Below are positions 7,852 to 35,090 of a stretch of 35,090 nucleotides of DNA, one piece after another. The notes beneath the pieces are model-generated. The model saw only the letters and a program-made list of their open reading frames with translations, was not told where the DNA came from and searched no databases. Source of the stretch: Rhodothermia bacterium. Its GTDB lineage: Bacteria > Bacteroidota > Rhodothermia > Rhodothermales > JAAAOL01. The stretch is taken from the NCBI GenBank assembly GCA_030428385.1, contig JAUIDY010000063.1, positions 1-35,090 of the forward strand, read 5' to 3'. The position numbers and the translations under genes are program-made. The stretch's first letter is position 1; every line of letters starts with the position of its first letter.

Positions 7852-8328
7852 CTACAAACCGGACGACAGCCCCGCTTCGCCATTGGGCGGACCGTCCACA
7901 CAGCAAAGCAGGCATTCGGCATCACATGACGACCCGGACTGCGCCATCGCGGGTGTCGGGGCCAGCGTTGTTTCCACCACAGGAATCATCAGCGTGAGTG
8001 CCCCCACCAGACCGATCTTTTTGACAAAGCGCCGCCGGGCGGCCCGCAGTGCTTCCGGCGAACGCGGGCCAGCTTCCTGCAACAGGTGGGCGCGGCGCAG
8101 GTGCGCGAGACTCATCTGCACGAGATCGGCGTCGGCCTCTCCGTTGAGATTCGCTTGCAGCAAAGCCACCAGATCGTCGGTGCTACGCGTGCCGTCGGCG
8201 TGCTGAAAGATGAGCGCCGCGGTTTTGTTGAGCGTATGCGCGAGGTTACGCGTTTGGTCAAAAACGAGCAGTTCGTCGCCAACGGGCTGCACAAGAAGGT
8301 CGCGGGAACGCGCAAGCGGATGGGCCAT
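7852..8328 (-). CDS. PqqD-family (RRE) protein with internal Tat-like signal and Cys-rich tail
   Basis: The 158-residue product has three parts. Residues 1-85 form a PqqD/RiPP-recognition-element winged-helix domain (DLLVQPVGDELLVFDQTRN, LNKTAALIFQHADGTRSTDD, then a helix with QMSLAHLRRAHLL). A linker then leads to RRRFVKKIGLVGAL (about 98-111), which matches the Tat motif RRxFxK, followed by a hydrophobic stretch and APTPAMA|Q, a plausible signal-peptidase site. The last 29 residues are a small Cys-rich tail with Cys135, 139, 142 and 143 (CDAECLLCCVDG). PqqD domains bind leader peptides for radical SAM and other RiPP-modifying enzymes; here the domain appears fused to its own exported peptide. 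No maturase is present in the window. Start ATG 8328 puts the domain at the N-terminus; ATG 8379 adds 17 poorly conserved residues. The domain call is solid; the precursor role is inference. Confidence 0.8.
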   Translation of the reverse strand: MAHPLARSRDLLVQPVGDELLVFDQTRNLAHTLNKTAALIFQHADGTRSTDDLVALLQANLNGEADADLVQMSLAHLRRAHLLQEAGPRSPEALRAARRRFVKKIGLVGALTLMIPVVETTLAPTPAMAQSGSSCDAECLLCCVDGPPNGEAGLSSGL

Positions 8329-8488
8329 GATGAAGCGGTGGATTCGTGAAGACCGGTGGATGATTAAGTGTCTGCACAAATACCGATGGCGCGTGCTGGC
8401 GTGCGTAGATCGTTCGTTCTAATTCGCCTGCACCTAGCTTCCGCTTTTCCTGCCTCTTGGGGGCACCAGGCGTTGCTATATGCGCATA

Positions 8489-9400: not shown

Positions 9401-11080
9401 ATGGCAGCGTGGCTGTGGGCGGTTCCGGCCGAGCATTACTCGACGTATGTAAAGACGGGCACCTTCGCGATCCGCAAGGTGGGGCGCGGCGCGCTGGCGT
9501 CGGTCTGCCCGGGCGATGTGCTGTTTGCGTACCTCTCCGGCTCCAAGGTCATCGCAGGCATGTTCGAGGCAGTGGGCACGGCATTCGAGGACGCGACGCC
9601 CTTGGTGGCAGGCGGGCACTATCCGCACCGGCTGCGCGTGCGTCCCATCATTCCCCTCACCCGTGAGGCCTGGGTGCCGTACGACGCCTTCCACGACAGC
9701 CTCGCCGTGGTGCGCGGCTATCCCGACTTTGGGGCCGTCGTGCGCCAGGTCCTCCACCCGCTCCCCACTGTCGATGCCAAGGTGCTGGAGTTTCTTGTCC
9801 GCGCCCGCGAAGCCGCCAGCCTCGACAAGGTGCTGGAAGCGTACGACGCCTACCTCACGGCCAAAGAATCCGGCGACGAAGCCTTACAGGTTGCCGAACC
9901 TGCTGCTGCGTACGACCTCTCCGCCTTCAACCGCGCCGAGGCGATGGAGCAGTTGCTGGCCTATATCGACGGGCAGGGGTTTGTGTATGAGCCGTGGGAA
10001 GTGGCGGCGTACGTCACCGCGCTGCGAACGAAACCGTTTGTGATCCTTGCGGGCGTCACGGGTACGGGCAAGTCGCAGTTGCCGAAGCTGGTAGAGGCAG
10101 GCACAGGCGGACGAAGCCGACTGGTGCCGGTGCGCCCCACCTGGGCCGACAGCGCCGACGTGCTGGGTTATCAGGACCTCGCGGGGCATTTCCGCCCCGG
10201 CGCCGTGCTGCGGGCCGCCCGCGATGCCCAGCAGCGCCCCGACCGCCACCTCACCTGCATCGTCGACGAGATGAACGTGGCGCGGGTGGAGCATTACTTC
10301 GCCGAGGTACTGAGCCGCATGGAAGACCGCCAGCGCGCCGCCGAGGGCGGCTACGAAAGCACCCCGCTCCTCGACCTTGATCTGCCCTCGCCCGACGCGG
10401 CATGGCAAACCGTGGCGCTGGCGCCCAACCTCGCGCTTGTGGGGACGGTGAATATGGACGAAAGCGCCCACGGCTTCAGCCGCAAGGTGCTGGATCGTGC
10501 GTTTACGCTGGAGTTAAACGCCATCGACCTTGGTGCGTGGCAGGACGAGCAGAAGAACGTATCGCCCGGTCGCTGGCCGGTGCAGGCGTGGTTTCCCCGC
10601 GCATCGGCGTTGGCGGAGTCGCTTGTGCTCTCGAAAAAAGAACGGTCGCTCGTCAGCCGCGCCATCGACGAACTGGTGGCGGCCAACGCGTTGCTCGCCC
10701 CCGCGCAGGCGCAGGTCGCCTATCGCACCCGCGACGAAGTGGTGCTGTTTCTGCTCCACGCCGCCGAGACACCCGACGCCTTCCGCACCCGCACCGGAGA
10801 CGCCGTGGACCCGCTGGACCTCGCGATGCACATGAAGGTGCTGCCGCGCCTCGCCGGAGGCAGCCAAGCGCTCCGCCATGCCTTACGCGGCCTCCTTGGC
10901 TGGGCGATGACGGGCACCGCGTTTCAGGACGACGCCGATGTACGCACAGTCCTCAACACCTGGGAAACCGCCGGACGCCCCCACACCGTGCCCGACGCCC
11001 GCTTCCCACGTACCACCGCCCGCCTGTGCCTCATGTGGGAACGACTGCTAACGGAGGGATTTACGTCGTTTTGGGTGTAG
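9401..11080 (+). CDS. EVE-domain/McrB-type AAA+ protein (type IV restriction-like), without McrC
   Basis: The 559-residue protein has an N-terminal EVE domain (residues 1 to about 118; WLWAVPAEHYSTYV and FAIRKVGRGALASVCPGDVL), a PUA/YTH-like fold that reads modified bases. A helical linker follows, then a McrB-family AAA+ motor with Walker A GVTGTGKS (218-225), Walker B CIVDEMN (286-292, Asp289-Glu290), and the McrB-type signature VGTVNMDES (Asn351, Asp353) with LDRA at 364-367. In McrBC systems the motor drives DNA cleavage by a McrC nuclease. The downstream gene is on the opposite strand and is an ABC transporter, so no McrC is adjacent. EVE-McrB fusions are known in type IV restriction and in CoCoNuT-like systems; here the gene stands alone with a repeat-rich upstream spacer. 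Domain calls are strong; a defence role is inference. Confidence 0.88.
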   Translation: MAAWLWAVPAEHYSTYVKTGTFAIRKVGRGALASVCPGDVLFAYLSGSKVIAGMFEAVGTAFEDATPLVAGGHYPHRLRVRPIIPLTREAWVPYDAFHDSLAVVRGYPDFGAVVRQVLHPLPTVDAKVLEFLVRAREAASLDKVLEAYDAYLTAKESGDEALQVAEPAAAYDLSAFNRAEAMEQLLAYIDGQGFVYEPWEVAAYVTALRTKPFVILAGVTGTGKSQLPKLVEAGTGGRSRLVPVRPTWADSADVLGYQDLAGHFRPGAVLRAARDAQQRPDRHLTCIVDEMNVARVEHYFAEVLSRMEDRQRAAEGGYESTPLLDLDLPSPDAAWQTVALAPNLALVGTVNMDESAHGFSRKVLDRAFTLELNAIDLGAWQDEQKNVSPGRWPVQAWFPRASALAESLVLSKKERSLVSRAIDELVAANALLAPAQAQVAYRTRDEVVLFLLHAAETPDAFRTRTGDAVDPLDLAMHMKVLPRLAGGSQALRHALRGLLGWAMTGTAFQDDADVRTVLNTWETAGRPHTVPDARFPRTTARLCLMWERLLTEGFTSFWV

Positions 11081-14278: not shown

Positions 14279-14308
14279 TTGTCAGATGATTAACAACCTG
14301 CTTATCTT
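14279..14308 (+). promoter_or_regulatory. Promoter-like boxes upstream of the LRR gene
   Basis: TTG at 14279-14281 and TATCTTGG from 14303 are separated by 21 bp, close to the Bacteroidota consensus TTG-N19-21-TAnnTTTG. They sit about 50 bp before ATG 14361 and overlap an in-frame upstream ATG at 14286. This is one reason to place the true start at 14361. Confidence 0.35.
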
Positions 14309-14360
14309 GGCGTCCCTTGCTCAGGGCATCTGTTCCTCCATCCGTTTTCCCCCGTTGTTG

Positions 14361-17300
14361 ATGGCGCGTTTCTTTTTTGTTCTCCTGCTTCCGACCGTAC
14401 TTCTTGCCACGCCACTCACGGCCCACGCCTACGACTGCTCGGCCCAAACCGAGATTCCGGAGGCCGAGTGCGAAGCCCTCATTGCGTTCTACAATAGCAC
14501 CAACGGCGACAACTGGATTGACAACTCCGGCTGGCTCACTGACCCGATTGCTTCTTGGGAAGGTGTGACGATTGCGAACGGACATGTGCAAGAACTTATT
14601 TTTGTGGAAAACGCATTGAGTGGACATATACCCCCAGAGCTTGGCAATTTGGTCAATTTAAAGACTTTGTTTTTTTGGCTTAATGACCTGTCAGGAACAA
14701 TACCGCCTGAATTAGGCAACCTTGTTAATCTGGAGCATCTGGATTTGGCTGACAACACTTTGACGGGAAATATCCCCCCTGAACTGGGTGCGCTTTCTAG
14801 TTTGAATAAACTATCACTGAATGACAATGACCTAACAGGAAATATCCCCCTCGAATTAGGAGATCTCCTTCAATTAGAGCATCTGGATTTAGGTTTGAAT
14901 GACCTGACAGGAAGTATTCCTCCTGTACTAGCTAACCTTGTCAATTTGCAAATCCTCAGTCTTGCTAACAATGACTTGTCTGGAAATATTCCTCCTCAAC
15001 TAGGAAATCTTTCCAATTTGGAGCAGTTGAGGCTCGAAGAAAATAGCCTGGAGAATATCCCGCCGGAGTTAGGTAACCTGACGAATTTGCTGGCGCTGTA
15101 TCTCTTCGATAATCCTCTGTCCGGAAGTATCCCTGCAGAACTGGGCAATCTTTCTAACTTGGTGCATTTGTTTCTCTTCGATACGAATCTGTCAGGAAAC
15201 CTCCCGCCAGAACTGGGCAATCTTTCTGATCTCGAGTGGTTGGCCCTCTCCAATACAGATTTGTCGGGAAGCATCCCGCTTTCGTTCACCAACCTCTCCT
15301 CCTTATTCCGCTTTCATTATGAAGGCACCAACCTCTGCGAACCGAGCGACCCTACCTTTCAGGCCTGGCTGAATAATATATCCAGCTTGAAAGGAACGGG
15401 GTTGGCCTGCCCCATCAACTGTGCCACCCAAAACGAAGTGCCCCAGATCGAATGCGAGGCGCTGGTGGCATTCTATAACAGCACCGACGGTGACAACTGG
15501 GCCAACAACGACGACTGGCTCACTGACCCAATTTCTTCATGGCATGGTATCGCTATTAGTGGAGGACATGTACAAGAACTAAACCTGTCCTGGAATGCAC
15601 TAAATGGCAATCTTCCTCCCGAGATAGGCAATCTTGGAGAATTGAAAGAATTGTCCATGTCTCAAAATTCCTTGAACGGAGCTATCCCCGCGACGTTGGG
15701 CAATCTTTCCAATTTGCAGAATCTATCATTTCGTGGCAACAATCTGACAGGTAGTATTCCTTCTACATTAGGGGGGCTTTTTCAATTAGAATTGCTCGAT
15801 TTAGGTGGCAATGAATTGACAGGCAGTATTCCCACTGAATTGAGTGACCTCGCCGATTTGAAGTACCTCATACTTAGTGGTAACTCATTGTCAGGCAATA
15901 TCCCGGCTTTTCTTGGCAACCTTACCACCCTGATGCAACTTCGGATTGAGAAGAATGAGTTTTCCGGAACTATCCCTCCCGAACTAGGAAATCTGGTTAA
16001 CTTGGAGGCGTTATTTCTTGAACGAACTTCCTTATCCGGAAACCTTCCTCCCGAATTAGGAAACCTCTCGAACCTGACGCACCTTCACCTCTTCGAGACC
16101 GACCTAGAAGGAAGGATCCCTGTGTCATTTACGAACCTTCCCCTCCAACGCTTTTGGTTCGAGGACACCAACTTGTGCGAACCGAGCGACCCTACGATTC
16201 AGGCTTGGCTCAATGGTATACAAGACCTAGAAGGAACAGGGTTGGCCTGTCCCGTCAATTGTGCGGTACAAACTAGAATCCCAGAGTTGGAATGCGAAGC
16301 TCTTGTGGCACTCTATAACACCACCGATGGCGACAATTGGAATGATAATTCAGGGTGGATTACTGAAGCCACTAGTTGGCATGGTGTAGATGTAGAGGAT
16401 GGGCATGTTGCCGGACTATACCTCACCAGCAATGGATTGATGGGAGCCATTCCTTCTGCAATCGAGAATCTTACAATGCTTGAAGAATTGCAGCTTGATG
16501 AAAATTCGCTTTCCGGCCCAATCCCTGCCGAACTCAGCAGCCTCGCTAATCTAAAGGAATTACGCCTAGACACCAACAATCTGACAGGCCCCGTCCCTTC
16601 TGAATTGGGCAACATGCTCCAATTAGAGCGATTACTACTCAACAATAATACCTTCACAGGAGAGATCCCGCTCTCATTCATCAATCTATCCCTCGACTGG
16701 TTCCACTTCAACGACACCAACCTGTGTGAACCGCAAGATCCCGACTTCCAGGCTTGGCTCGACGGTATTGGCTTCCTGCTAAGCACGGAGGTGGCCTGCG
16801 AAATCATTCAGCCGGTCTTGACCATCACGTCGCAGAATCCCGACAGCGGCGTCGACATCACCGTCAGCCCCGCCGATATCAACGACGAAGCAAACGGCTC
16901 CACTGCCTTCACCCGCACCTATGATCTCGGCACACCCGTCACGCTCACCGCGCCCGATGTTGCGCCGGGAGGCAACATCTTCGCAGGATGGTTGCTCGAT
17001 GGACAGACGTTTCCCGATAACCCGCTGCACGTCAACATGGGTGGCGACCACACCGCCACGGCCCTTTTTGAAACGCCGACGTGTACCCTCACTGTCGCCT
17101 CCGAAGACCCTGCGGTTGATGTCCTCATTTCGGTTAGCCTGGCCGACCTCGACGGCTTCGGCGATGGCACCACCCCGTTCAGCCGCACGTACGTCTGCGG
17201 CACCGAGGTGACCCTCACCGCACCGCCCGAAGCGGGAAGCAACGTCTTCACACGCTGGCTGCTCGACAACAGCCCGGAGACCAACACGCAAGCACTGACC

Positions 17301-18467
17301 GTGACCGTCGATGCCAATCGCGCCACGACGGCGGTTTACGGCCTCGCACCGCGCATCCTGACAGTGAACTCGCAAAACCCAGAATCGGGCGTTGAGATCA
17401 GCGTCAGCCCAAGCGCCACCAACGGCCTCGCCGATGGCACCACGGCCTTCACGCGCACCTACGACGACGGCACCAACGTGACGCTCACGGCACCAGAGAT
17501 GGCCCCTAATGGCAATCCGTTCACCGAATGGCAACTCGATGGCACCACGGCGACCACCAACCTGTCGCTGCTGGTAGCGATGAATGCCAGCCATACCGCC
17601 ACGGCGGTGTATGGGTCGCCTTCCTACACCGTAAACGTAGGCTCGCAAAACCCCGATGCAGGCGTTCCCATCATGGTGAGCCCTGCCGACGAAAACAGCG
17701 ATGGCGACGGCCTGACCGCCTTCAGCCGTACCTACCTCAGCGGCACCCCCATCAACCTGACCGCACCGGATACTTCGCCCGAAGGCAACCCGTTTGGCAA
17801 ATGGGCGTGCGGAGCCACAGAAACGATGGAGGCCACAGTTGCTTTCTCGGTCAGAAGCAACGCCACCTGCACCGCTTATTTCCTGATCCCGCCCGATGGC
17901 GGCTCTACCGAAACGGACATTGGAGAGACGGTGAGCTTAAGCTGGAGCGCCATCCCCGGTGCGGATCGCTATCATGTCCAGGTGAGCGATGGGCCGTCGT
18001 TTGGCAAGCTGGAGGCGTTGGTGGTAGACACCGACACGGTGACCACAAACCGCTTCGACGTCCCGCCGGGCCTGCTCTCTTCCGAGCAGAACTTCTTCTG
18101 GCGCATCCGGTCGGGCATCACGGGCGAAACGACCACGCGGTGGTCAGGCTGGTCCGACCAGAGCGTGATTCCCACGGTGGTCGAACGGCTGGACGACACG
18201 ATCCCTTCGTCGTTTACGCTGGAGAACTATCCCAACCCATTTAATCCAAGCACCACGATTCGGTATTCGTTGCCGGAGGCCGGCGACGTCACGCTGGTTG
18301 TTTTTGATGCGACGGGCCGCCATGTCGTCACGCTGGTGAACGGAGCGCAACCCGCCGGTCTGTATGAGGCTACCTTCGAGGCGGGCGATTTGCCGAGCGG
18401 CACGTATTTCTTCCGCCTCGAACAAGGCACGTACCGCGAGACGCGGGCGATGCTGCTGGTGAAGTAA
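14361..18467 (+). CDS. Giant secreted leucine-rich-repeat protein with T9SS sorting domain
   Basis: The product is 1368 residues (residue numbers below count from an upstream ATG at 14286). A signal peptide (MARFFFVLLLPTVLLATPLT, cleaved near AHA|YDC) is followed by three LRR blocks. Block 1 (51-375) has ten, block 2 (379-655) eight and block 3 (659-838) four 24-residue plant-type repeats of the form LxxLxLxxNxLxGxIPxxLG. Each block opens with a cap containing ECEALVAFYNSTDGDNW followed by GW and SWHGV, and closes with DTNLCEPSDPTFQAWL followed by TGLAC. Then come four beta repeats (844-930, 932-1018, 1023-1109, 1113-1199; SQNPDSGVDITVSPAD, TAFTRTYD, GTPVTLTAP), a fibronectin-like segment (about 1201-1297) and the C-terminal sorting domain (1310-1393; NYPNPFNPSTTIRY). 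It should be exported through the outer membrane and attached to the surface, where LRRs usually bind proteins or glycans. The LRR part is much more AT-rich than the rest. Confidence 0.9.
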   Translation: MARFFFVLLLPTVLLATPLTAHAYDCSAQTEIPEAECEALIAFYNSTNGDNWIDNSGWLTDPIASWEGVTIANGHVQELIFVENALSGHIPPELGNLVNLKTLFFWLNDLSGTIPPELGNLVNLEHLDLADNTLTGNIPPELGALSSLNKLSLNDNDLTGNIPLELGDLLQLEHLDLGLNDLTGSIPPVLANLVNLQILSLANNDLSGNIPPQLGNLSNLEQLRLEENSLENIPPELGNLTNLLALYLFDNPLSGSIPAELGNLSNLVHLFLFDTNLSGNLPPELGNLSDLEWLALSNTDLSGSIPLSFTNLSSLFRFHYEGTNLCEPSDPTFQAWLNNISSLKGTGLACPINCATQNEVPQIECEALVAFYNSTDGDNWANNDDWLTDPISSWHGIAISGGHVQELNLSWNALNGNLPPEIGNLGELKELSMSQNSLNGAIPATLGNLSNLQNLSFRGNNLTGSIPSTLGGLFQLELLDLGGNELTGSIPTELSDLADLKYLILSGNSLSGNIPAFLGNLTTLMQLRIEKNEFSGTIPPELGNLVNLEALFLERTSLSGNLPPELGNLSNLTHLHLFETDLEGRIPVSFTNLPLQRFWFEDTNLCEPSDPTIQAWLNGIQDLEGTGLACPVNCAVQTRIPELECEALVALYNTTDGDNWNDNSGWITEATSWHGVDVEDGHVAGLYLTSNGLMGAIPSAIENLTMLEELQLDENSLSGPIPAELSSLANLKELRLDTNNLTGPVPSELGNMLQLERLLLNNNTFTGEIPLSFINLSLDWFHFNDTNLCEPQDPDFQAWLDGIGFLLSTEVACEIIQPVLTITSQNPDSGVDITVSPADINDEANGSTAFTRTYDLGTPVTLTAPDVAPGGNIFAGWLLDGQTFPDNPLHVNMGGDHTATALFETPTCTLTVASEDPAVDVLISVSLADLDGFGDGTTPFSRTYVCGTEVTLTAPPEAGSNVFTRWLLDNSPETNTQALTVTVDANRATTAVYGLAPRILTVNSQNPESGVEISVSPSATNGLADGTTAFTRTYDDGTNVTLTAPEMAPNGNPFTEWQLDGTTATTNLSLLVAMNASHTATAVYGSPSYTVNVGSQNPDAGVPIMVSPADENSDGDGLTAFSRTYLSGTPINLTAPDTSPEGNPFGKWACGATETMEATVAFSVRSNATCTAYFLIPPDGGSTETDIGETVSLSWSAIPGADRYHVQVSDGPSFGKLEALVVDTDTVTTNRFDVPPGLLSSEQNFFWRIRSGITGETTTRWSGWSDQSVIPTVVERLDDTIPSSFTLENYPNPFNPSTTIRYSLPEAGDVTLVVFDATGRHVVTLVNGAQPAGLYEATFEAGDLPSGTYFFRLEQGTYRETRAMLLVK

Positions 18468-18496: not shown

Positions 18497-20074
18497 TTAC
18501 CGCACCAACAACCGCGTCGCCTGCACGGTTTCGCCTTCTACCTGCACGGCGTAAACGCCGGTTGGCAGGTGGCTCGCGTCGAAGGCAAACGAGGTCTCCT
18601 GCACCACCGTCTCGTTGAACAGCACCGCCACCTGCCGCCCCAGCATATCGTAGACGCGCACCTGCACCGCCTGCGGCTGATCGACGCGGAGGGTGAGGGT
18701 GGTTTCGGTCGTCACGGGGTTGGGAAAGAGGTCGATGTGGAAAGCAGGAGTGGGCACTTCCTCCGTGGCGGTGACCTCCAGCGGGGTGACGTAGATCTCG
18801 AAAAGGCGGTTGCTGGCGCTGGACGGGGTGATGTTGGGGCGCTCGGCAAGGATGCCGCCGTACATCCAACCGACAAACGTGCGCCCGTCGAGTTCATGGA
18901 GTTGGATGACCTCGTTGGCGTAGTGCGGAAGCCCCTCGGCGGGAATAAAGACGGCGTTGGAGCCCAGCCGGGCGGGGAGGCGCACGGGCCAGATGGTTTC
19001 GCTGGAGGTACCGTCGGCGTGACGCGTAAACGTGGTGATCTCGTTGAGGAACGGCACAAGGTCGTCGGGGACCAGTTCGCCCGCGATGTCGTCGTAATAA
19101 TACATGCCGATGCCACCGAAAAAGGTGGTGTGCATCGCGGCGGTGCGGGCGTCGAAAAGCGGCACGGCGGGGCAGGTGTAGTGGCTCATGCGCTGTTCAA
19201 AATCCCAATCGACCGTGTAGGCGTCGTCTTTCATGTAGATCGGGTTGAGGAAGGGCAAATCAACGGTTTTTTGGAAGACACCGCCGTATGCCGCCCAGCC
19301 CAACGTGCCATCGGGATACACCACCGGTGCCGTGGTGAGGTCGCGGCGGTGAAACTGGTCGGTGTCGGTCGCGGCTTCGTAGTCGGCAATCGCCAGCGTG
19401 GTGCCGTCGTCTTCGATGCGAAAGCTGCGCACCTGCTCGGTATACGCCTGCGTGAACGTGAGGCCACTCCGGCTGTACTCACCGTCGAAGTCATGCCCGA
19501 AGGCCAGGTAAAACCGTCCGTCCAGATACTCCATTTCGCCGCCCGTCACCTTCACTCGGGAGTCTGTGATCTGGCGGATGTGCGGCTCCAGCGCCGTACC
19601 ATTAATCACGGCATCAATAAGCGCCGGCACCTGCAGCGCCGTCAGGGTCGGGAACGTAATCTTGCGATCTTCGGCGTTGCTGTGGCCGTAGCCGCCGAAC
19701 ACATACAGGGATTCGCCCACCTGCGCGTACTGTGTGTTCGTTGAACGCAGCGGATCGGCCAGTGAATCGGGCAAGGCATCCAGTGATGCCGACCACACCT
19801 CCCGCGTTTCGGGGTTCATCACCCAGAGGTCGTTGTTGGCAAAGGGGAGCGGAAACGGATTGACCGCAAACCCATGCAGCCCGTTGGTGCGCCCGCTCAC
19901 AAACAGCCAGCGTCCCTGGTGCTGCGCAAAGGCAAACGAATGCAGCCCCGGCGCGGACGGCATGGTCGTTTCGACGAGTTCGAGTTCAAACGGAACCGCA
20001 GGTCCGTACTGGGCCTGCGCAGGCACAACAAAAAGACCGGCGCAGACAACCAGCGCCACACAGAAAAAACGCAT
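18497..20074 (-). CDS. Secreted Kelch-like beta-propeller protein with T9SS sorting domain
   Basis: The 525-residue protein has a signal peptide MRFFCVALVVCAGLFVVPAQ (cleaved near AQA|QYG), so ATG 20074 is preferred over ATG 20134. The body carries Kelch-like blades: RWLFVSGRTNGLHGF, ANNDLWVMNPETREVW, SLYVFGGYGHSN, YLDGRFYLAFGHDFDGEYS, AMHTTFFGGIGMYYYDD. The C-terminal domain (about 440-525) is a Por/T9SS sorting module with DLFPNPVTTETTLTLRV, VRVYDMLGRQVAVL and PTGVYAVQVEG. Function is unknown; propellers of this kind usually bind proteins or glycans outside the cell. The gene converges on the LRR gene with a 29-bp gap, so both 3' ends encode sorting domains facing each other. Confidence 0.85.
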   Translation of the reverse strand: MRFFCVALVVCAGLFVVPAQAQYGPAVPFELELVETTMPSAPGLHSFAFAQHQGRWLFVSGRTNGLHGFAVNPFPLPFANNDLWVMNPETREVWSASLDALPDSLADPLRSTNTQYAQVGESLYVFGGYGHSNAEDRKITFPTLTALQVPALIDAVINGTALEPHIRQITDSRVKVTGGEMEYLDGRFYLAFGHDFDGEYSRSGLTFTQAYTEQVRSFRIEDDGTTLAIADYEAATDTDQFHRRDLTTAPVVYPDGTLGWAAYGGVFQKTVDLPFLNPIYMKDDAYTVDWDFEQRMSHYTCPAVPLFDARTAAMHTTFFGGIGMYYYDDIAGELVPDDLVPFLNEITTFTRHADGTSSETIWPVRLPARLGSNAVFIPAEGLPHYANEVIQLHELDGRTFVGWMYGGILAERPNITPSSASNRLFEIYVTPLEVTATEEVPTPAFHIDLFPNPVTTETTLTLRVDQPQAVQVRVYDMLGRQVAVLFNETVVQETSFAFDASHLPTGVYAVQVEGETVQATRLLVR

Positions 20075-20244
20075 CAAAGCAAGAGAATCAGCAGGTAAAA
20101 CAACACGGTCGGAATATCGACAACGCAAGATCAAGCATTAGAGGTTGTTGAGGTTTTCAGCTTGGTGCAAGCAAGATCACAAATCTTAACAGCGTCTTAG
20201 ACCGGGCATGCGAATATCCTATTCCCCAAAAGACCGCGCAACGC

Positions 20245-20301: not shown

Positions 20302-21954
20302 CTACTTGATCAACTGCATCGTGCGGGTCTGCACGGTGCCGCCCGCCTCCATCCGGTACAGGTACACGCCCGATGGCACGAAACTCCCGGCATCGCTGCG
20401 GCTGTCCCACGTGATCTCCTGTACCCCCGCGTTCATGGCTCCATCCACCAGCGTCGCCACCTGTTGTCCGAGGGCGTTGTAGATGGTCAGCCGCACATGG
20501 GCTGCCTCCGGCAAGGCAAAGCGGATGGTCGTGCTGGGATTAAACGGGTTGGGATAGTTCTGATCAAGGCGGAACGAGGCGGGGGTTTCATCCACCAGCG
20601 CCTGCAGCGCCGGGCGCAGTTCTTGTTCCGACGCCGACGGCGTAGCGCCCAACCCGGCGAGGATTTGGTTTGCTTGATCGATGATCGTCTGTGCTACCAC
20701 GCTTGGAATACGCCCTCCAAACAACGCACGCGGGGATAGGCCCGGAATCCCCAAGGCGTGATCCTCAGAGACCAACGAGACAAAGCCGATGACACTGCGC
20801 AAGGTGCGAAGGGTGCCATTGGTATCGTCGGCGAGTGCCCGTTGCTGGGCGGCACCCAGCCGCGCTTTCAAGATCGAAGCCAGGTTGGGGCTGATTTGCC
20901 CGTCGGCTTCATACCCTGCCACCACCGCTGCCAGCTTGCCGATGCGCTCGGCGGGCGTGGGCGCGACGCGCAGGATCATACCAAACAAACTGCCGATGAA
21001 CAGATCACCGTTGTCGCTGAACGTGAGGCTGCTGGCAAAATTAAGCCCACCCGCCAGCGTTTCCTTCGATCCGTCGGCGTAGAGTTTGGTGACGCTGCCC
21101 GTGCCGGGAATAAAACCGGAGGCCAGATCAAAGTTGGCAATCATCGAAACCGCCGGGGTGCCATCCACCGGATCGACCGCGAGGTCGGTGAGCAGCGTCA
21201 GGCCATCCTGATACACCGAGACGTTGCCCTGTAGATCGACGGCATATACCGTGGCAGCCTTCGGAAGAAACGGGAATCCCGTCAGCGACGACACCAGAAA
21301 CTGGTCGCCCTTGAAGGCAATGCCCGTCGGGACGGTGTTGAAGAACGGCGGGCCAACAGGCGTAGGATTGGGCAGGTCGGGGAACTGGGCAAACAGGCTT
21401 AGTTCACCCGTGTCGCTATTGCGGCGAAAAATGGCGTTGGCGGCAGCATCCACGATGAACAAATCGCCACCTGGTCCCCACACGGCGCGGTACGGGTTGC
21501 TTTCGGCAACGCCGGGGTTGGAAACGGCAAAGTCGCTGATGTTCTCCACCGAGGCAGCATCATCCGCGCTGCGGGGAGCATCACCGGGGGTAAAGCCACC
21601 CATGTCGAACATGAGCAGCGACATCGAAATGGCATCCGAGCCTTGTCCCTGGAGCATAAGCAGGTTGCCATCCGCGTCGAACAGCACGTCCGTGGGGCCC
21701 GTGGTTTCGTCGCCGAACGACTCGGAGGGCAAGCCTTCAATGACGGCATGCACCTGCCCGTCTGGGGTCACGACGGAGATGCGTCCGTCGTTGTTGCCGG
21801 TGCCTTGCTCTGCCACCCACAGGTTGCCGTCGGCGTCGAAGGTCATGCCCAGCGGGCTGTTTAGCCCCGCCGCGTAGATGCTTACGTTTTCCTGAGCCGC
21901 CGCCGTGGGGACAACAAAAAGAAGCAATAACAAAAAGAGCGGTAGTGTTTTCAT
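20302..21954 (-). CDS. ScyD/ScyE-family (NHL-like propeller) secreted protein with T9SS sorting domain
   Basis: The 550-residue protein begins with a signal peptide (MKTLPLFLLLLLFVVPTAAA|QE). Residues about 25-345 follow the ScyD/ScyE pattern: VSIYAAGLNSPLGMTFDADG, NLWVAEQGTGNNDGRISVV, GPTDVLFDADGNLLML, DLFIVDAAANAIFRR, TGIAFKGDQFLVSSLTGFPF. This is a family named from the cyanobacterial scytonemin cluster but widespread as periplasmic or secreted propellers of unknown activity. A helical region follows (about 350-450), then the T9SS sorting domain with NYPNPFNPSTTIRFALPEA, LTIYNALGQQVATL and PSGVYLYRMEAGG. There is no scytonemin pathway nearby, so that function should not be assumed. An intrinsic terminator follows the gene. 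Confidence 0.88.
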   Translation of the reverse strand: MKTLPLFLLLLLFVVPTAAAQENVSIYAAGLNSPLGMTFDADGNLWVAEQGTGNNDGRISVVTPDGQVHAVIEGLPSESFGDETTGPTDVLFDADGNLLMLQGQGSDAISMSLLMFDMGGFTPGDAPRSADDAASVENISDFAVSNPGVAESNPYRAVWGPGGDLFIVDAAANAIFRRNSDTGELSLFAQFPDLPNPTPVGPPFFNTVPTGIAFKGDQFLVSSLTGFPFLPKAATVYAVDLQGNVSVYQDGLTLLTDLAVDPVDGTPAVSMIANFDLASGFIPGTGSVTKLYADGSKETLAGGLNFASSLTFSDNGDLFIGSLFGMILRVAPTPAERIGKLAAVVAGYEADGQISPNLASILKARLGAAQQRALADDTNGTLRTLRSVIGFVSLVSEDHALGIPGLSPRALFGGRIPSVVAQTIIDQANQILAGLGATPSASEQELRPALQALVDETPASFRLDQNYPNPFNPSTTIRFALPEAAHVRLTIYNALGQQVATLVDGAMNAGVQEITWDSRSDAGSFVPSGVYLYRMEAGGTVQTRTMQLIK

Positions 21955-22999: not shown

Positions 23000-23112
23000 C
23001 GTTTGTCTCACCAAAAATGCTATATTTAAGCGTCGCGAAAAGCAGCCCGTGCTGCCCCGTTTTCTTTATCACAGAAAAGCGGGCGGGATTGGCTCATTTT
23101 TTTGGTGAGCGG

Positions 23113-23178
23113 AAAGGAGGAGGTGGAAAGCATATGTTTGAGAACAAAAAAGAAGGCGACAGAAAACGGCATCTGTAG
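23113..23178 (+). other. Possible 14-codon leader ORF with a strong Shine-Dalgarno
   Basis: AAAGGAGGAGGTGG at 23113-23126 lies 7 bp before ATG 23134, which opens MFENKKEGDRKRHL and stops at TAG 23176-23178. Most genes in this window lack a Shine-Dalgarno, so this one stands out. It lies about 80 bp before the sigma-factor gene and may be a leader peptide, or chance in purine-rich DNA. Confidence 0.25.
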
Positions 23179-23257
23179 CATCGTGCTGATGGCGCAGCGC
23201 GGGCTACGCCCTACCACCGACACAAGAAAAAACCACACGTCCAAGAGCTTACCCCCC

Positions 23258-23851
23258 ATGTCCACCAACCGAAAGCCCTCCGTCACGCGTTTGCTCGAAG
23301 CCATCGAGGCCGGTGACCGCCGTGCGATGGATGCGCTGTTTCCGCTGGTGTATGAGGAGCTGCGCAGCCTCGCGCAGATGCAGCGCCAGCGGTGGCAGGG
23401 AAACCACACCATGAACGCGACGGCGCTGGTGCACGAGGCGTACCTCAAGCTAGTGGATCAGGACAAGGCCCACTACCGCAGCCGGGCGCACTTTCTGGCG
23501 GCGGCCTCCAAGGCCATGCGGCACATCCTCATTAACTACGCCCAGCAGCAGCAGGCCCAGAAGCGCGGCGGCGACCAACAGCGGATGTCGCTGGACGACC
23601 TGCGCGACGTGCTCGGCGGGACGTTTACGATGTCGGACGAACGCGCTGACCAGTTCTTGATGCTGGAAGCAGCCCTGCGCCGCCTGGAGGGCGAAAGCGA
23701 ACGGCAGAGCCGCATCGTCGAATGCCGCTTCTTTGGTGGCATGACGATTGAAGACACCGCCACCGCCCTCGACATCTCGCCTGCCACCGTGAAGCGCGGC
23801 TGGACGATGGCACAGGCGTGGCTGCACCGCGAAATAAAAAACGCTGCCTGA
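23258..23851 (+). CDS. ECF-type RNA polymerase sigma factor (Sig-70 X6 / ECF SigK-like group)
   Basis: The 197-residue protein is a sigma-70 family regulator of the group often paired with Ser/Thr kinases in Planctomycetota, Acidobacteriota and Rhodothermota. Region 2 is MDALFPLVYEELRSLAQMQR followed by HTMNATALVHEAYLKLVDQ and RAHFLAAASKAMRHILINYA. Region 4 is RIVECRFFGGMTIEDTATAL followed by DISPATVKRGWTMAQAWLHR, a helix-turn-helix for the -35 element. ATG 23258 gives the usual short N-terminus (MSTNRKPSVTRLLEAIEAGD); upstream codons to 23102 are Lys/Thr-rich and unlike the family. The kinase gene starts 15 bp after its stop, so the two form an operon, and the kinase may control the sigma factor by phosphorylation, as shown or proposed for related pairs. 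Confidence 0.92.
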   Translation: MSTNRKPSVTRLLEAIEAGDRRAMDALFPLVYEELRSLAQMQRQRWQGNHTMNATALVHEAYLKLVDQDKAHYRSRAHFLAAASKAMRHILINYAQQQQAQKRGGDQQRMSLDDLRDVLGGTFTMSDERADQFLMLEAALRRLEGESERQSRIVECRFFGGMTIEDTATALDISPATVKRGWTMAQAWLHREIKNAA

Positions 23852-23866
23852 GTACGCTGAACCTGT

Positions 23867-26677
<2,811 letters not shown>

Positions 26678-26793
26678 TCTTGGAGCTTTTGTCGACTTTT
26701 TCCGTCTCGGATGACAAGAACCGATGAAGGTGAGCGTTTTGCCCACCCTTTGGTGTACTATCCATAGACGACCCGACCCTATCTTCTTCACCC

Positions 26794-28470
26794 ATGTCTT
26801 TTAAACTCATCGTCACCTCTTCGGAGACGCCCGGCGCGCCGCGCTCGTATGTGTTCGACAAGGAGCACATCACCATCGGGCGCAGCACGATGAACGACCT
26901 GCCCCTGTACGACCCCAAGCGCCTCGTCAGCACGCGGCACGCCGAGATTCGCTGTGACGACGCCTGCCACATCATGGACCTGGGCAGCAAGAACTTTACG
27001 TTTCTCAACGGAGAACGCCTGCATCCCGGCCAGCCCTATGACCTGACCGATGGGGACGCCCTGCGCATCGGTGCCTTCGATATTGCCTTCCATCAGGAAT
27101 CGCCGCCGACGGGCAGCATGGGGGTCATTGCCATCGACATCCCTTCGACGCTTCAGTTCGATGCCCAGCCGCCCACGGTGCGGACGCTCTACGAAACCCT
27201 CGACACCGTCCCGCCCGACCGCCGCGAAGACACCCTGCGACAGACGCTGGAAAAGCTGGCGCTGCTTAACGAACTGACCGCCGAAATCGGAGCCTCGCAA
27301 GATCCCAAGGCCATCATGGACCGCATCGTCGAAACCGCCATGCAATCGGTGGAGGCCGCGCAGGGACTGATTACGCTGGTGGATGAAAAAAATGACCAGT
27401 CGGCCCACACGTTTATCCGCCGGATGACGGACACCGAGGAGCAGTTCCACGTGAACCAGCACCTGCTGGGCTGGATGCAAGAGCACAAGAAACCCCTACG
27501 CCTCAACGATGCCGCCCGCGAGGCGTGGAACTACGGTATCTATGCGGGCATCTCGTTTCAGTCGGTGCTCTGTGTCCCGCTGATGACCCGCTCGGCCCTC
27601 ACGGGCATCCTCACCGTGTGTAACAAAAACGACGCAGCGGGCTTCACCGAGTCCGACGAACGGCTGCTGGCGATTATGGCGGGGCAATCGGCACAGATCC
27701 TGGAGACGGCGCGGCTGCAAAAAGAGCAACAGCGGCTTCTGCGCGTGCAGGAAGAAATGCGCCTTGCCTACGACATCCAGACCAACCTGCTGCCCAAACA
27801 AAAGCCCCTCTTTCCCGGCTACGAAATCGCAGGCACCAGCCTCCCGGCCCAGACCGTCGGCGGCGACTACTTCGACTACATCAAGCTGAGCGATCACCGC
27901 GTGGCGCTGTGTGTGGGCGATGCGGTGGGCAAGGGCCTACCCGCCTCGCTGCTGATGGCGAATACGCAGGCGACGCTGCGGGGGCAGACGCCGTGGGCCA
28001 ACTCGGTGCAGGAATGCCTCGAGCGCTCGAACAAGCTGCTGTATGAAAGCACCAAGCCCGGCGCGTTTGTCACGCTCGTCTACGGCATCCTCGATACGCA
28101 GGCGCACACGTTTCGCTATGCCAACGCCGGACACAACCGCCCGCTGTTGCTGCGTCCGGGGTATGCGCCCGTGGAACTGCCCGCAGGTGGCCTCGTCCTC
28201 GGCGCGGTGAGCAACATGAGCTACGACGAAGACGTGTGCGCCCTCTTGCCGGGCGACGTGCTCGTGCTTTTCTCCGATGGCATCACCGAAGCGTTCAATG
28301 AACACCGCGAGCAATTCGACGATCCTCGGCTGGCGCAGTTGATCCAACGGGGGGCGCACCTCTCGGCCCAGGACCTCGTCGATACCATCATCCGCGAAGT
28401 CTGTGCCTTCGTCGGCGATGAACCGCAGACCGACGACATGACGCTGGTGGTGGCGAAACGGGTGGGGTAA
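26794..28470 (+). CDS. FHA-GAF-PP2C (SpoIIE/RsbU-type) Ser/Thr phosphatase
   Basis: The 558-residue protein starts with an FHA domain (1-100) that binds phosphothreonine: ITIGRSTMNDLP (Arg30), LVSTRHAEIR (Ser46, His49), SKNFTFLNGERL. A GAF domain follows (about 155-310; LNELTAEIGASQDPKAIMDR, SVLCVPLMTRSALTGILTV), then a linker helix (EEMRLAYDIQTNLLP) and a PP2C/SpoIIE phosphatase (about 345-556) with metal-binding TVGGDYFDY (Asp358), CVGDAVGKGLPASLLMA (Asp376), LFSDGITEAF (Asp495) and QTDDMTLVVAK (Asp548). This architecture is that of RsbU-like stress phosphatases. It lies 116 bp after the kinase gene on the same strand, so it is likely the opposing partner: kinase writes, FHA reads, PP2C erases. 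Domain calls are firm; the pairing is inference from position. Confidence 0.94.
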   Translation: MSFKLIVTSSETPGAPRSYVFDKEHITIGRSTMNDLPLYDPKRLVSTRHAEIRCDDACHIMDLGSKNFTFLNGERLHPGQPYDLTDGDALRIGAFDIAFHQESPPTGSMGVIAIDIPSTLQFDAQPPTVRTLYETLDTVPPDRREDTLRQTLEKLALLNELTAEIGASQDPKAIMDRIVETAMQSVEAAQGLITLVDEKNDQSAHTFIRRMTDTEEQFHVNQHLLGWMQEHKKPLRLNDAAREAWNYGIYAGISFQSVLCVPLMTRSALTGILTVCNKNDAAGFTESDERLLAIMAGQSAQILETARLQKEQQRLLRVQEEMRLAYDIQTNLLPKQKPLFPGYEIAGTSLPAQTVGGDYFDYIKLSDHRVALCVGDAVGKGLPASLLMANTQATLRGQTPWANSVQECLERSNKLLYESTKPGAFVTLVYGILDTQAHTFRYANAGHNRPLLLRPGYAPVELPAGGLVLGAVSNMSYDEDVCALLPGDVLVLFSDGITEAFNEHREQFDDPRLAQLIQRGAHLSAQDLVDTIIREVCAFVGDEPQTDDMTLVVAKRVG

Positions 28471-28527
28471 CAGTCGTTCAGGTTTCCATCCATTGCAGCG
28501 ATGTTTCTGGCCCGACGCGCCCTGGCG

Positions 28528-28595
28528 CACCGTTACGGGTTTTAGTTTCCCCAAACCTCTTCCCTCAAACCTCTTCCCCCAATCCCCTTCCCACC
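28528..28595. repeat. Pyrimidine-rich dispersed repeat, copy 2
   Basis: CACCGTTACG at 28528-28537 is followed by three imperfect units of the form CAAACCTCTTCCC up to CCCCTTCCCAC. The same words occur in the same order at 11160-11211. It lies between the phosphatase stop and the CotH-family gene start. Confidence 0.45.
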
Positions 28596-28651
28596 GAACC
28601 CTGCTGCGTCGTACATTCTGGCCTTACCCCCTTGTTAATAAGCTGCGCGGA

Positions 28652-30883
28652 ATGATGCAGAAGTACGGCATGTTGTTCGGAGCCTTGGTGTTCATCGCGT
28701 TCGGAGCCCTCCTACCGGTCTATGGTCAAGCCATTGATCACTGGGAGACGGTGGTGTACGACGACGACGTGTGGCGCTACCTGGTGCCTACCGACGAGCC
28801 CAACGCAGCATGGCGCACATTAGGATTCGACGATGCCGCATGGAACAGCGGACCCGGCGGTTTTGGCTATGGCGACGACGACGACAACACCGTGCTGGAG
28901 AACATCCTGTCGGTGTACCAGCGGCAAACGTTTGTAATAAACGACCTGAACCGTATCGAGGGCGCAGTACTGCATGTGGACTTCGACGATGCGTTTGTGG
29001 CCTACCTCAACGGCGAAGAAATTGCTCGCAGCACCATCGGTACCGAGGGCGACTTCCCATCCTTCGACCAACCCGCCGACGGCCTGCACGAAGCGGATCT
29101 CTACCAAGGCAATACCCCGTTCGGCATCATCGTCCCCAAAGAACGTTTAAACGCGGGCGAAAACCTGCTGGCGGTGCAAACCCACAACGAAAGCACCACG
29201 TCATCCGACCTTACCTCGCGGGTATTCTTTTCCGTCGGAGTCACGGGGTCGGGCCGGACCTATAGCGACCCGCCCGACTGGTTCGTGGCACCCCGCCTCA
29301 ACCCGGAGTCCTTCACGTCCAACCTCCCTATTGTTGTCATCGACACCCAGGGGCGTTTTATCCCCGACGAACCCAAAATCCTGGCCCACATGGGCATCAT
29401 TCACAACGGCGACGGGGTTCGCAATAGCACCGACGATGCATTTAATAACTACGATGGGCTGATTGGCATTGAGTTGCGCGGGGCCTCCTCGCAGGCCATC
29501 TTTCCCAAAAAGCAATTCGCCATCGAGACCCGCGATGCCGACGGCGAAGACCAAGACGTAAGCCTGCTGGGTTTTCCCGAGGAGGAAGACTGGATCCTGC
29601 AAGGGCCCTACAGCGACAAGTCGCTGATGCGCAACGTGCTGAACTACCACTTATCGAACCAGATTGGGCGCTACGCCAGCCGCACCCGGTTTGTGGAAGT
29701 CGTGATCAACAACGAGTACCAGGGCGTTTTTGTGCTGATGGAACGCATCAAACGCGACAACAACCGCGTCGATATTTCCACGCTGAACCCGGACGAGATC
29801 AGCGGCGACGACCTCACAGGCGGCTATATCCTCAAGATCGACAAAAGCGAGGGCAGTGAGGTGGGCGGCTGGCAATCGCCGCATCCGACGCGCCCCGGCT
29901 CGCCCCACCGCGTTTTTTACCAGTACCACGTGCCCCGCCCGTCGGAGATTGTACCGGAACAGGAGGCTTACATCCAGGATGTGGTGGCGACGTTTGAAGA
30001 GGTGATGGTAAGCTCTGACTTCGCCAACCCGGAAACGGGCTATGCGCAATACATCGACGTGGAATCGGCCATCGATTTTGCCTTGCTGAATGAGATTTCC
30101 CGCAATGTGGACGGCTACCGCCTCAGCACGTTTTTCTACAAGGACAAAGACAGCATCGGCGGGGGCAAGCTGGTCTTCGGGCCGATTTGGGACTTCAACC
30201 TCGGCTTCGGCAATGCGGACTATTACGATGGCGGCAGCAACATCGGCTTCCAGATTGCGATCGGCGTCCCCGAGACCGATGGCCTCCAGCCGCCGTTCTG
30301 GTGGGCCAAGCTGTGGGGCGATTCTACGTTCCAGACCCTCGCCCTCGAACGGTGGCAGGCGCTGCGGCAGGGCCCCTTCCACACCGACTCGGTGATGCAA
30401 TTCATCGACGCCCAGGCGGCGCTGCTGAACGAAGCGCAGGCCCGCAACTTCGAGCGCTGGCCCGTCCTGAACCAATACGTGTGGCCCAACAACTTCGTCG
30501 GTGGCTCCTACGCCAACGAGATCAGCTTCCTGAAAAACTGGGTGACGGAGCGGCTGGAGTGGATGGACAACAACGTGGGGGCGCAGAATGTAAACACCGA
30601 AACACCGTTGCCCCGTAGTGCCTTTAGCCTGACAGCCCCGTATCCCAACCCGTTCACCGATGAGACGACGTTTACGTTATCGCTGCGCCAATCCGGCTCC
30701 GTAGAGGCTGCGCTGTACGATATCCTGGGTCGCCGCGTGCGCACGGTGGCGACGGGCGTGTTTGAGTCGGCGCGTCTGCATCCGCTCACCGTCTCTGCTG
30801 AGGGGCTTGCGAGCGGGATTTACCTGCTGCACGTCAGCGGGCCATCTTTTTCCACCACGCGCCCGGTGATGGTGGCTCGTTAG
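28652..30883 (+). CDS. CotH-kinase-family secreted protein with T9SS sorting domain
   Basis: The 743-residue product begins with a signal peptide (MMQKYGMLFGALVFIAFGAL, cleaved near GQA); ATG 28652 is chosen over ATG 28493, which adds 53 Pro-rich residues. A galactose-binding-like domain (FDDAAWNSGPGGFGYGDDDD, LHVDFDDAFVAYLNGEEIAR) comes first. The CotH domain follows (about 225-640) with IGIELRGASSQAIFPKKQFA, LQGPYSDKSLMRNVLNYHLS, GVFVLMERIKRDNNRVDI, GGYILKIDKSEG and FGPIWDFNLGFGN; the Lys, Arg and Asp residues of the atypical protein-kinase fold are present. The C-terminal T9SS domain has PYPNPFTDETTFTLSL and ASGIYLLHVSGP. CotH in Bacillus phosphorylates spore-coat proteins; bacterial homologues with sorting domains are surface proteins of unknown substrate. 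Confidence 0.9.
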   Translation: MMQKYGMLFGALVFIAFGALLPVYGQAIDHWETVVYDDDVWRYLVPTDEPNAAWRTLGFDDAAWNSGPGGFGYGDDDDNTVLENILSVYQRQTFVINDLNRIEGAVLHVDFDDAFVAYLNGEEIARSTIGTEGDFPSFDQPADGLHEADLYQGNTPFGIIVPKERLNAGENLLAVQTHNESTTSSDLTSRVFFSVGVTGSGRTYSDPPDWFVAPRLNPESFTSNLPIVVIDTQGRFIPDEPKILAHMGIIHNGDGVRNSTDDAFNNYDGLIGIELRGASSQAIFPKKQFAIETRDADGEDQDVSLLGFPEEEDWILQGPYSDKSLMRNVLNYHLSNQIGRYASRTRFVEVVINNEYQGVFVLMERIKRDNNRVDISTLNPDEISGDDLTGGYILKIDKSEGSEVGGWQSPHPTRPGSPHRVFYQYHVPRPSEIVPEQEAYIQDVVATFEEVMVSSDFANPETGYAQYIDVESAIDFALLNEISRNVDGYRLSTFFYKDKDSIGGGKLVFGPIWDFNLGFGNADYYDGGSNIGFQIAIGVPETDGLQPPFWWAKLWGDSTFQTLALERWQALRQGPFHTDSVMQFIDAQAALLNEAQARNFERWPVLNQYVWPNNFVGGSYANEISFLKNWVTERLEWMDNNVGAQNVNTETPLPRSAFSLTAPYPNPFTDETTFTLSLRQSGSVEAALYDILGRRVRTVATGVFESARLHPLTVSAEGLASGIYLLHVSGPSFSTTRPVMVAR

Positions 30884-34120: not shown

Positions 34121-35090
34121 TCAATGAACGACGAGCACAGGCGCAGAATAAACACGGGTTTCGGTACGGGCTTGCACGAGGTAGACGCCCGCCGGAAGGC
34201 CCCGCACATCGGCGTCGATGCGAAACGGTCCGACCGGAGCGGTCGAGTCCCACAACACCCGCACACGCCGCCCCAACACATCCACCAGATGCACCGTCAG
34301 CGGCCCAGCAGCAGGCACCGCCACATCGAGCCGCAGGTGATCGGTAGCGGGATTGGGGAACGAGGTTAGCGCAAAATCAATCACCGGCTGACCAGGCGCT
34401 ACGTCGAGGATCACGTCTACGCCGTCGTTGCGCAGCAGCACACCATCCGGGTCGAAGACGAGGCCCGTGGGTTCAGCCTCTACCGTGAGCAGGAAGGTTT
34501 GGTCGCGCTGGGTGTTGTGGACCACAAATCGCTGCTCGCCTGCCGCCGTCTGTACGGCAAGCGTCAGCGGCATCTCGAAGACCGCGACGTTGGAGGTGGG
34601 CGGAGTTTGCGTCTGCGACACATGGACATACACGTCGTGGCCGCCTTCGGCGGGATGGACCGAATAGGAGACGGCGTAGACCGGATAACCCGTGCCCTCA
34701 GTCACCCACTGGCGGAAAAACGCCTCCAGCGACTGCCCCGAAACGTCCTCCGCCACGCGCTGCAAATCGTCCGTGACGGCGGTGCCATAGGTGAGGGCAG
34801 GGTCGGTGAGGTACGCCTGCAACGTGGCGCGGAAAGCCGTATCGCCGAGGACGTAGCGCAGCATGTGCAGCACCGCCGAGCCTTTGGAATACACCCGGCT
34901 TCCGGCGAAGAGGTTGCTAATACTCAGCGTGTCTTGCACCACCAGCGTGCCCTGTGCCGAACGCGCCGAACTCTGGTCGAACTGCAGCACCGCCCCTGCC
35001 GAACCGGGATAGCGATCCGCCCGCGCTTCCCAATACAACACCTCGGCGTAGGAGGCGAAGCCTTCATTGAGCCACAGGTGCGGCCATGTG
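34121..35090 (-). CDS. M1-family aminopeptidase with T9SS sorting domain (cut by window edge)
   Basis: Only the C-terminal 322 codons are inside the window. The frame enters at the right edge reading HLWLNEGFASYAEVLYW, the conserved region after HExxH in M1 (gluzincin) peptidases; the Glu of NEGFA is the third zinc ligand. The catalytic-domain helix SRVYSKGSAVLHMLRYVLGD and the segment SLEAFFRQWVTEGTGYPVYA are typical of bacterial M1 enzymes. A beta domain follows, then a T9SS sorting domain (SFPNPATDHLRLDVAVPA, VHLVDVLGRRVRVLWDS, PAGVYLVQARTE). It should be secreted and cell-surface attached, trimming peptides. It is the first gene, within the window, of the minus-strand group that continues with the TonB receptor. 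Confidence 0.9.
   Translation of the reverse strand, partial: TWPHLWLNEGFASYAEVLYWEARADRYPGSAGAVLQFDQSSARSAQGTLVVQDTLSISNLFAGSRVYSKGSAVLHMLRYVLGDTAFRATLQAYLTDPALTYGTAVTDDLQRVAEDVSGQSLEAFFRQWVTEGTGYPVYAVSYSVHPAEGGHDVYVHVSQTQTPPTSNVAVFEMPLTLAVQTAAGEQRFVVHNTQRDQTFLLTVEAEPTGLVFDPDGVLLRNDGVDVILDVAPGQPVIDFALTSFPNPATDHLRLDVAVPAAGPLTVHLVDVLGRRVRVLWDSTAPVGPFRIDADVRGLPAGVYLVQARTETRVYSAPVLVVH

Follow-up and report, generated by a model that had tools for sequence, protein, structure and literature searches.

A small gene in the window (the whole 35,090-nucleotide stretch of DNA analysed here) almost certainly belongs to a protein family built on a single architecture, in which an RRE, or PqqD-like domain, is followed by a Tat-like signal and a Cys-rich tail. 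By a narrow balance, we read the gene as an orphan from a family of RiPP-type precursors whose folded RRE would serve as a leader in cis, with export of the protein by Tat; the leader role, the chemistry, the export and the cleavage are what we infer. The RRE-Tat-Cys-tail arrangement seems to be a design for secreted, probably modified peptides that has not been described so far: no description of RRE/PqqD precursors with Tat signals, of HprK-related kinase A or of PqqD knottins was found in the open-access PMC literature. Members of the family come mostly from metagenome assemblies and are known here from their sequences and from models alone.

The gene (P0001; 7852..8328, reverse strand) encodes 158 residues between an ATG at 8328 and a stop codon at 7852-7854. 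An alternative start, a TTG at 8379, lies further upstream; the ATG is the predicted start and fits that of the family. Residues 1-88 (core 11-83; 8065..8328, reverse strand) make up the RRE/PqqD-like domain, which matches PF05402 with an E-value of 6.6e-6, better than the Pfam cut-off; the same profile is detected in all 49 family members. In the AlphaFold2 model of the window protein, DSSP assigns a beta3-alpha3 arrangement to the RRE. Structural look-ups, which covered mainly this part of the protein, found the nearest solved folds to be the lasso RREs TbiB1 (5v1u/5v1v, Foldseek probability 1.00) and TfuB1 (6jx3, VIA Z 9.5). The top matches are lasso RREs in complex with leader peptides; heterocyclases and further RiPP enzymes come next, along with other structures.

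Behind the RRE lies the twin-arginine motif ARRRFVKK (residues 97-104; 8017..8040, reverse strand). The two arginines are invariant in the 49 aligned sequences and are preceded by Ser or Thr in 39 of them; the window copy has Ala at this position. Residue 103 is Arg or Lys in 48 of the 49. Next comes a hydrophobic region (7957..8016, reverse strand) that holds the family-conserved segment LPxVxS[IL]xAP (residues 115-124), and then an AMA site of the signal-peptidase type (residues 127-129; 7942..7950, reverse strand), with a cut predicted before Q130. By a loose pattern, an AxA-like site is found no more than 45 residues from the twin arginine in every aligned sequence (49/49). The genome encodes TatC (PF00902, E 2.5e-60, contig C197). 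Taken from these motifs, it is very likely that the proteins of the family are exported by Tat and cleaved. Within the hydrophobic region, P116 is found in 48 of the 49 sequences, and V/I118 and P124 in all of them; an extra beta-strand is predicted at 118-122 in the model of the window protein and at 123-127 in that of a relative, L051. Judging by the alignment, LPxVxS[IL]xAP is conserved beyond what export alone would require.

The putative core is the remaining tail of 29 residues (130-158; 7855..7941, reverse strand), QSGSSCDAECLLCCVDGPPNGEAGLSSGL. All four Cys of the protein are found here and none upstream. The predicted structure of the tail is of low confidence (AlphaFold2 pLDDT ~55), and with four Cys it does not fit the six-Cys knottin spacing CX4-7CX4-7CCX3-6CX3-9C. 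It ends in GL, as do the copies on contigs C181 and C151; other copies end in FCASA or a close variant. These parts had been named in the preliminary description, namely a PqqD-like domain, RRRFVKK with a hydrophobic stretch and AMA|Q visible in the translation, and a four-Cys tail, and each was borne out. Its proposal that the RRE is a built-in leader and that the tail follows a Tat-like signal gains support from the comparison of family sequences: the family lacks a conserved soluble C-terminus, the twin arginine does not vary and the tail Cys are conserved.

Besides the window copy, the window's genome contains no fewer than 15 copies or fragments of the gene. Most stand in tandem arrays on the contigs C118 and C181, and one or two each are found on C143, C117 and C151. 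Full-length copies are 61-68% identical to the window copy. Among 12 of them, mean identity is 75% in the N-terminal part and 49% in the tails, and none has a Cys before the cleavage site. The tails are mostly long (up to 102 residues) and of low complexity, with Ser, Cys, Ala, Gly and Asp as abundant residues (24.6% Ser, 18.1% Cys, 8.9% Asp). Their Cys counts are of mixed parity: 2, 4, 6, 7, 9, 9, 14, 14, 15, 15, 20 and 21. In 753 tail residues from C118, C181, C143, C117 and the window there is one Arg and no Lys, His, Met or Trp; the tails thus have a strongly reduced, acidic residue alphabet. Because several Ser codons are used, this composition is more than the product of a DNA repeat. 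Gly, Ser or Ala precedes 94 of the 136 tail Cys. One copy on C143 (L011; contig coordinates 14054-14203) is broken off at about 50 residues with unrelated sequence beyond, and is either a pseudogene or a contig-end chimera. A cut copy lies at one end of each of C118 and C181, in compatible orientation, which suggests that the two contigs may be neighbours; no exact sequence overlap between these ends was found.

Which enzymes could act on the tails? No RiPP maturase is present among the scanned ORFs of the 35 kb window, in agreement with the preliminary description, which had suggested that a maturase could act in trans, and candidates for that role are encoded on the two contigs with arrays. 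The C118 array surrounds a fused ThiF-like/YcaO cyclodehydratase (TIGR03604, E 2.1e-80; TIGR03882, 1.7e-42). This gene is the only YcaO of the genome; its product is fused to the TOMM partner protein and has two CxxC pairs. A SagB dehydrogenase gene (TIGR03605, 7.7e-47) lies beside the C118 copies, on the same strand as these and the YcaO gene, and past SagB there is an NTP_transf_5 gene on the opposite strand. Two HprK-related kinases, the only ones found in the genome, are encoded inside the C181 array. With YcaO, SagB and the kinases elsewhere in the genome, the maturation machinery would be present in trans to the orphan window copy. No radical SAM partner was found among the scanned proteins near the arrays. 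The scanned cluster ORFs include no peptidase or peptide exporter, in keeping with export and cleavage by Tat and signal peptidase. The preliminary description had proposed to look for homologues with a twin-Arg motif and a Cys-rich tail, and for radical SAM or other maturases that co-occur with them. Such homologues exist, and the partners found are YcaO and SagB in this genome (SagB also in a second one, G043) and HprK-related and NTP_transf_5 proteins across the family; radical SAM enzymes gained no support.

Directly next to the window copy, a gene for a phage Gp157-type protein (PF05565; 8597-9118, reverse strand) adjoins one for an AAA_5 ATPase (9401-11080, forward strand), and the pair is possibly a mobile-element or defence remnant. 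Genes for an ECF sigma factor, a Ser/Thr kinase with TPRs and an FHA-GAF-SpoIIE phosphatase follow one another at 23102-28470 (forward strand) and are likely to be a signalling set. Secreted proteins with a Por_Secre_tail (type IX sorting) are encoded at 14286-18467, 18497-20134, 20302-21954, 28493-30883 and 34121-35041; an LRR/InlB-repeat protein and a CotH kinase are among these large proteins.

Outside the window's genome, relatives were found at E <= 1e-10 in at least 43 of 396 genomes, a sample of the phylum of a Vicinamibacteria relative (Acidobacteriota side) in which up to ten candidates per genome were scored, with most matches covering the RRE and the signal. A Cys-rich tail is present in nearly every aligned relative; across the 49 sequences, Cys accounts for 16.9% of tail residues vs 1.0% upstream. 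Neighbourhoods were counted at fetched loci. Within 1.5 kb of the precursor at 43 other loci, an HprK-related kinase gene is present at 29, an NTP_transf_5 gene at 29, both at 23 and either at 35. The precursor gene usually lies between or beside the two, often within polysaccharide gene clusters, and in all 12 of the family-bearing genomes tested the best HprK-related match is the gene next to the precursor. The His, Gly-Lys and Asp of the kinase motif are found in 35 of 35 sequences and the second Asp in 31. It is likely that the kinase and NTP_transf_5 proteins are true partners of the family. A named strain with this triad is the cultured Gemmatimonadota Gemmatirosa kalamazoonensis KBS708, in which genes for the kinase, the precursor, MauE and NTP_transf_5 are consecutive. 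An unfused arrangement is found in one genome (G030, locus L036), where a discrete, tail-less PqqD gene lies beside an HprK-like gene. YcaO occurs in two of 11 family-bearing genomes tested (G540 and G662), in both cases outside the fetched neighbourhoods, and is thus no family-wide partner. On the Acidobacteriota side (L080-L115) the triad is often found at one and the same chromosomal site, with polysaccharide genes on one side and a TsaD-family/GNAT acetyltransferase pair on the other.

The nearest outside relative (L024, 9899-10540) comes from Rhodothermales bacterium IP29b_bin.67 (G043) and joins the RRE-Tat part to a Cys-free, Lys-rich repeat tail (SPTKKK, APKKK). An HprK-like kinase gene flanks its gene on one side and a SagB dehydrogenase gene on the other. 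This genome, which is 81% complete, yielded no YcaO. The presence of SagB beside a Cys-free tail suggests that enzyme and tail type are not always matched. Against genome contigs, a query with a single protein gave no match and a query with an alignment gave three loci. The family was not found in viral contigs. For the 'PqqD family' proteins of Halobacterium plasmids, the match ends before the tail, and an OPT transporter is adjacent.

Two types of tail can be told apart. All 36 of the aligned non-Rhodothermales tails have an even number of Cys (six in 24 tails, eight in nine, ten in two and none in one), a count that does not amount to 36 independent trials since the tails are related by descent. 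Cystine-knot spacing is found in five Acidobacteriota-side tails vs 0.23 expected in shuffles, the knottin profiles PF06357, PF07740 and PF11703 are matched by single members, and the model of the L051 tail shows a folded mini-domain (pLDDT ~92-94). The even parity outside Rhodothermales points to disulfides, and for the Acidobacteriota tails a disulfide-bonded, even-Cys mini-protein is the better reading. By contrast, mixed parity and TOMM enzymes in the window's genome point to azol(in)es. Together with the mostly longer tails and the Gly, Ser or Ala before most Cys, they suggest a shift from disulfides to heterocycles. Azole formation on the C118 and C181 copies is somewhat favoured; on the window copy itself it is doubtful.

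How might such a protein be matured? In the explanation that we prefer, the RRE would dock the trans-encoded enzymes, that is, ThiF-like/YcaO with SagB from C118 and the two HprK-related kinases from C181. Their targets would be Cys, Ser and Thr in the tail, which would become azol(in)es, with phospho-Ser as a further possible product. Once modified, the precursor would leave by Tat, a route for folded cargo, and signal peptidase would cut at AMA|Q, freeing the tail. In Acidobacteriota and Gemmatimonadota the same chassis would carry disulfide-type tails, with the kinase/NTP_transf_5 pair alongside; these two proteins, too, would probably dock on the RRE and act on the tail. It is a speculative addition, prompted by the predicted strand, that the RRE may bind LPxVxSIxAP in cis as a ligand of its own, so that the signal is masked until modification is finished. 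A bolder form of this scheme is possible, though less likely than not: a previously undescribed RiPP chassis in which an RRE fused to its own substrate would grip LPxVxSIxAP of the Tat signal as a pseudo-leader, export would wait for modification, the chassis would bear disulfide mini-proteins in Acidobacteriota and Gemmatimonadota but azole-type cores in the Rhodothermales lineage of the window, and in this lineage scattered precursors would be served in trans. Several features of the window copy count against the preferred explanation, namely its distance from the enzymes, its mere four Cys, the lack of an FCASA end and the Ala before the twin arginine. The mismatch of enzyme and tail type in G043, the scores of the HprK-related proteins well below the TIGR04352 cut-off and the lack of sequence overlap between C118 and C181, whose union in one cluster is suggested by their ends, also weigh against it. 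Docking by the RRE is further called into question by the N-terminal region of the C118 cyclodehydratase, which is itself RRE-like by eye.

The same four Cys would suit a different outcome, in which the window tail is a Tat-exported disulfide mini-protein that is not heterocyclised; the kinase and NTP_transf_5 would modify Ser or another residue, and YcaO/SagB would serve only the FCASA-type copies. The window tail shares its even count with every aligned tail from outside Rhodothermales, and the cystine-knot spacings, the knottin-profile matches, the folded L051 tail and the MauE gene of the Gemmatirosa cluster all agree with disulfide chemistry. However, parity is mixed and the tails are mostly long and of low complexity in the genome to which the window copy belongs, its own tail is modelled with low confidence, and the C118 copies have a TOMM cyclodehydratase in their midst. 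We consider the disulfide mini-protein possible for the window tail, though rather unlikely. The acidic, thiol-rich composition, with up to 21 Cys in a tail and almost no basic residues, also brings to mind a Tat-exported metal sink or surface coat in which modification is secondary. Bufferins offer a precedent: these RiPPs carry signal peptides, are exported with modified Cys and bind copper (PMC12452194); yet no metal-handling genes were found among the scanned proteins near the arrays, and kinase, NTP_transf_5 and YcaO are not the partners of bufferins (MNIO and DUF2063), which makes this role improbable.

Two further alternatives would deprive the window gene of a precursor role. Solitary amid housekeeping and secreted-protein genes, on a branch longer than that of most copies and with a short tail, it could be a stranded, decaying duplicate without function. 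Against this, the ORF is intact, the RRE core, the twin arginine and the AMA site are conserved and Cys is confined to the tail, and there is little chance that decay accounts for the gene. The PqqD-like fold could also belong to a membrane-anchored winged-helix domain that binds DNA or acts as a sensor, as this fold is common to RREs and regulators and gives weaker structural matches to the latter. Since the best matches are to leader-bound RREs and the gene partners are RiPP-type enzymes, we regard this as extremely improbable.

If the preferred reading as a precursor is correct, the usual RiPP layout is reversed and the recognition domain belongs to the substrate. It would provide a portable RRE-Tat chassis that takes varied tails to kinase, NTP_transf_5 or YcaO enzymes and then out of the cell. 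It would also supply a likely substrate, in three bacterial groups, for the HprK-related kinases and for the NTP_transf_5 proteins, whose annotation is 'uncharacterised'. The pattern of RRE, RR, AxA and Cys tail gives a handle on peptides that leader-based genome mining may skip, and Cys parity yields a simple azole-or-disulfide prediction, testable by mass spectrometry.

In the window's genome, there is a likeness to TOMM/LAP systems, given a fused ThiF-like/YcaO protein and a SagB-type dehydrogenase beside the Cys/Ser-rich, core-like tails of the C118 copies, with Gly, Ser or Ala before Cys. Known LAP precursors have short leaders that are bound by the RRE of the enzyme, and export is usually by ABC transporters after protease cleavage. 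The precursor described here, by contrast, brings an RRE and a Tat signal of its own and is encoded by several copies scattered through the genome. A structured domain that serves as leader for a YcaO cyclodehydratase is also found in NHLP/proteusin systems (PMC12455567); there the leader is nitrile-hydratase-like and not an RRE, and the abstract of that paper describes no Tat signal. Bufferins resemble the family as Cys-rich RiPP precursors with an export signal, but they use Sec and not Tat, and a precursor without an RRE is served by MNIO and a DUF2063-RRE partner in trans (PMC12452194).

The kinase and NTP_transf_5 genes recall the tailoring of lasso peptides by PadeK/ThcoK and PsmK/PsmN, where one pathway combines an HprK-like kinase that bears a His-Lys-Asp-Asp motif with an RRE (B1) and an annotated nucleotidyltransferase (PMC9266682). 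An HprK-like kinase adds phosphate to a C-terminal Ser of both paeninodin and pseudomycoidin, and the latter also receives a hexose from a nucleotidyltransferase homologue (PMC9266682). Phospho- or glyco-tailoring is therefore plausible for the triad of kinase, precursor and NTP_transf_5. Unlike in lasso systems, the RRE and the putative substrate form one protein, and a Pfam scan of ORFs on C118 and C181 found neither a B2 protease nor an asparagine-synthetase-like cyclase. HPr-rel-A (TIGR04352/TIGR04353) likewise combines an HprK-related kinase with a PqqD-family protein, but the PqqD modelled by NCBIfam is a domain on its own, 74 residues long, in contrast to the one here with its Tat signal and Cys tail. 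Membership of HPr-rel-A was rejected: the kinases are related, and their scores (67 bits at best and 56.6 bits for relatives) are below the curated TIGR04352 cut-off of 200 bits. The protein is classed as a RiPP precursor, which in the window's genome is of TOMM type by gene context, and as a member of neither the lasso nor the HPr-rel-A systems.
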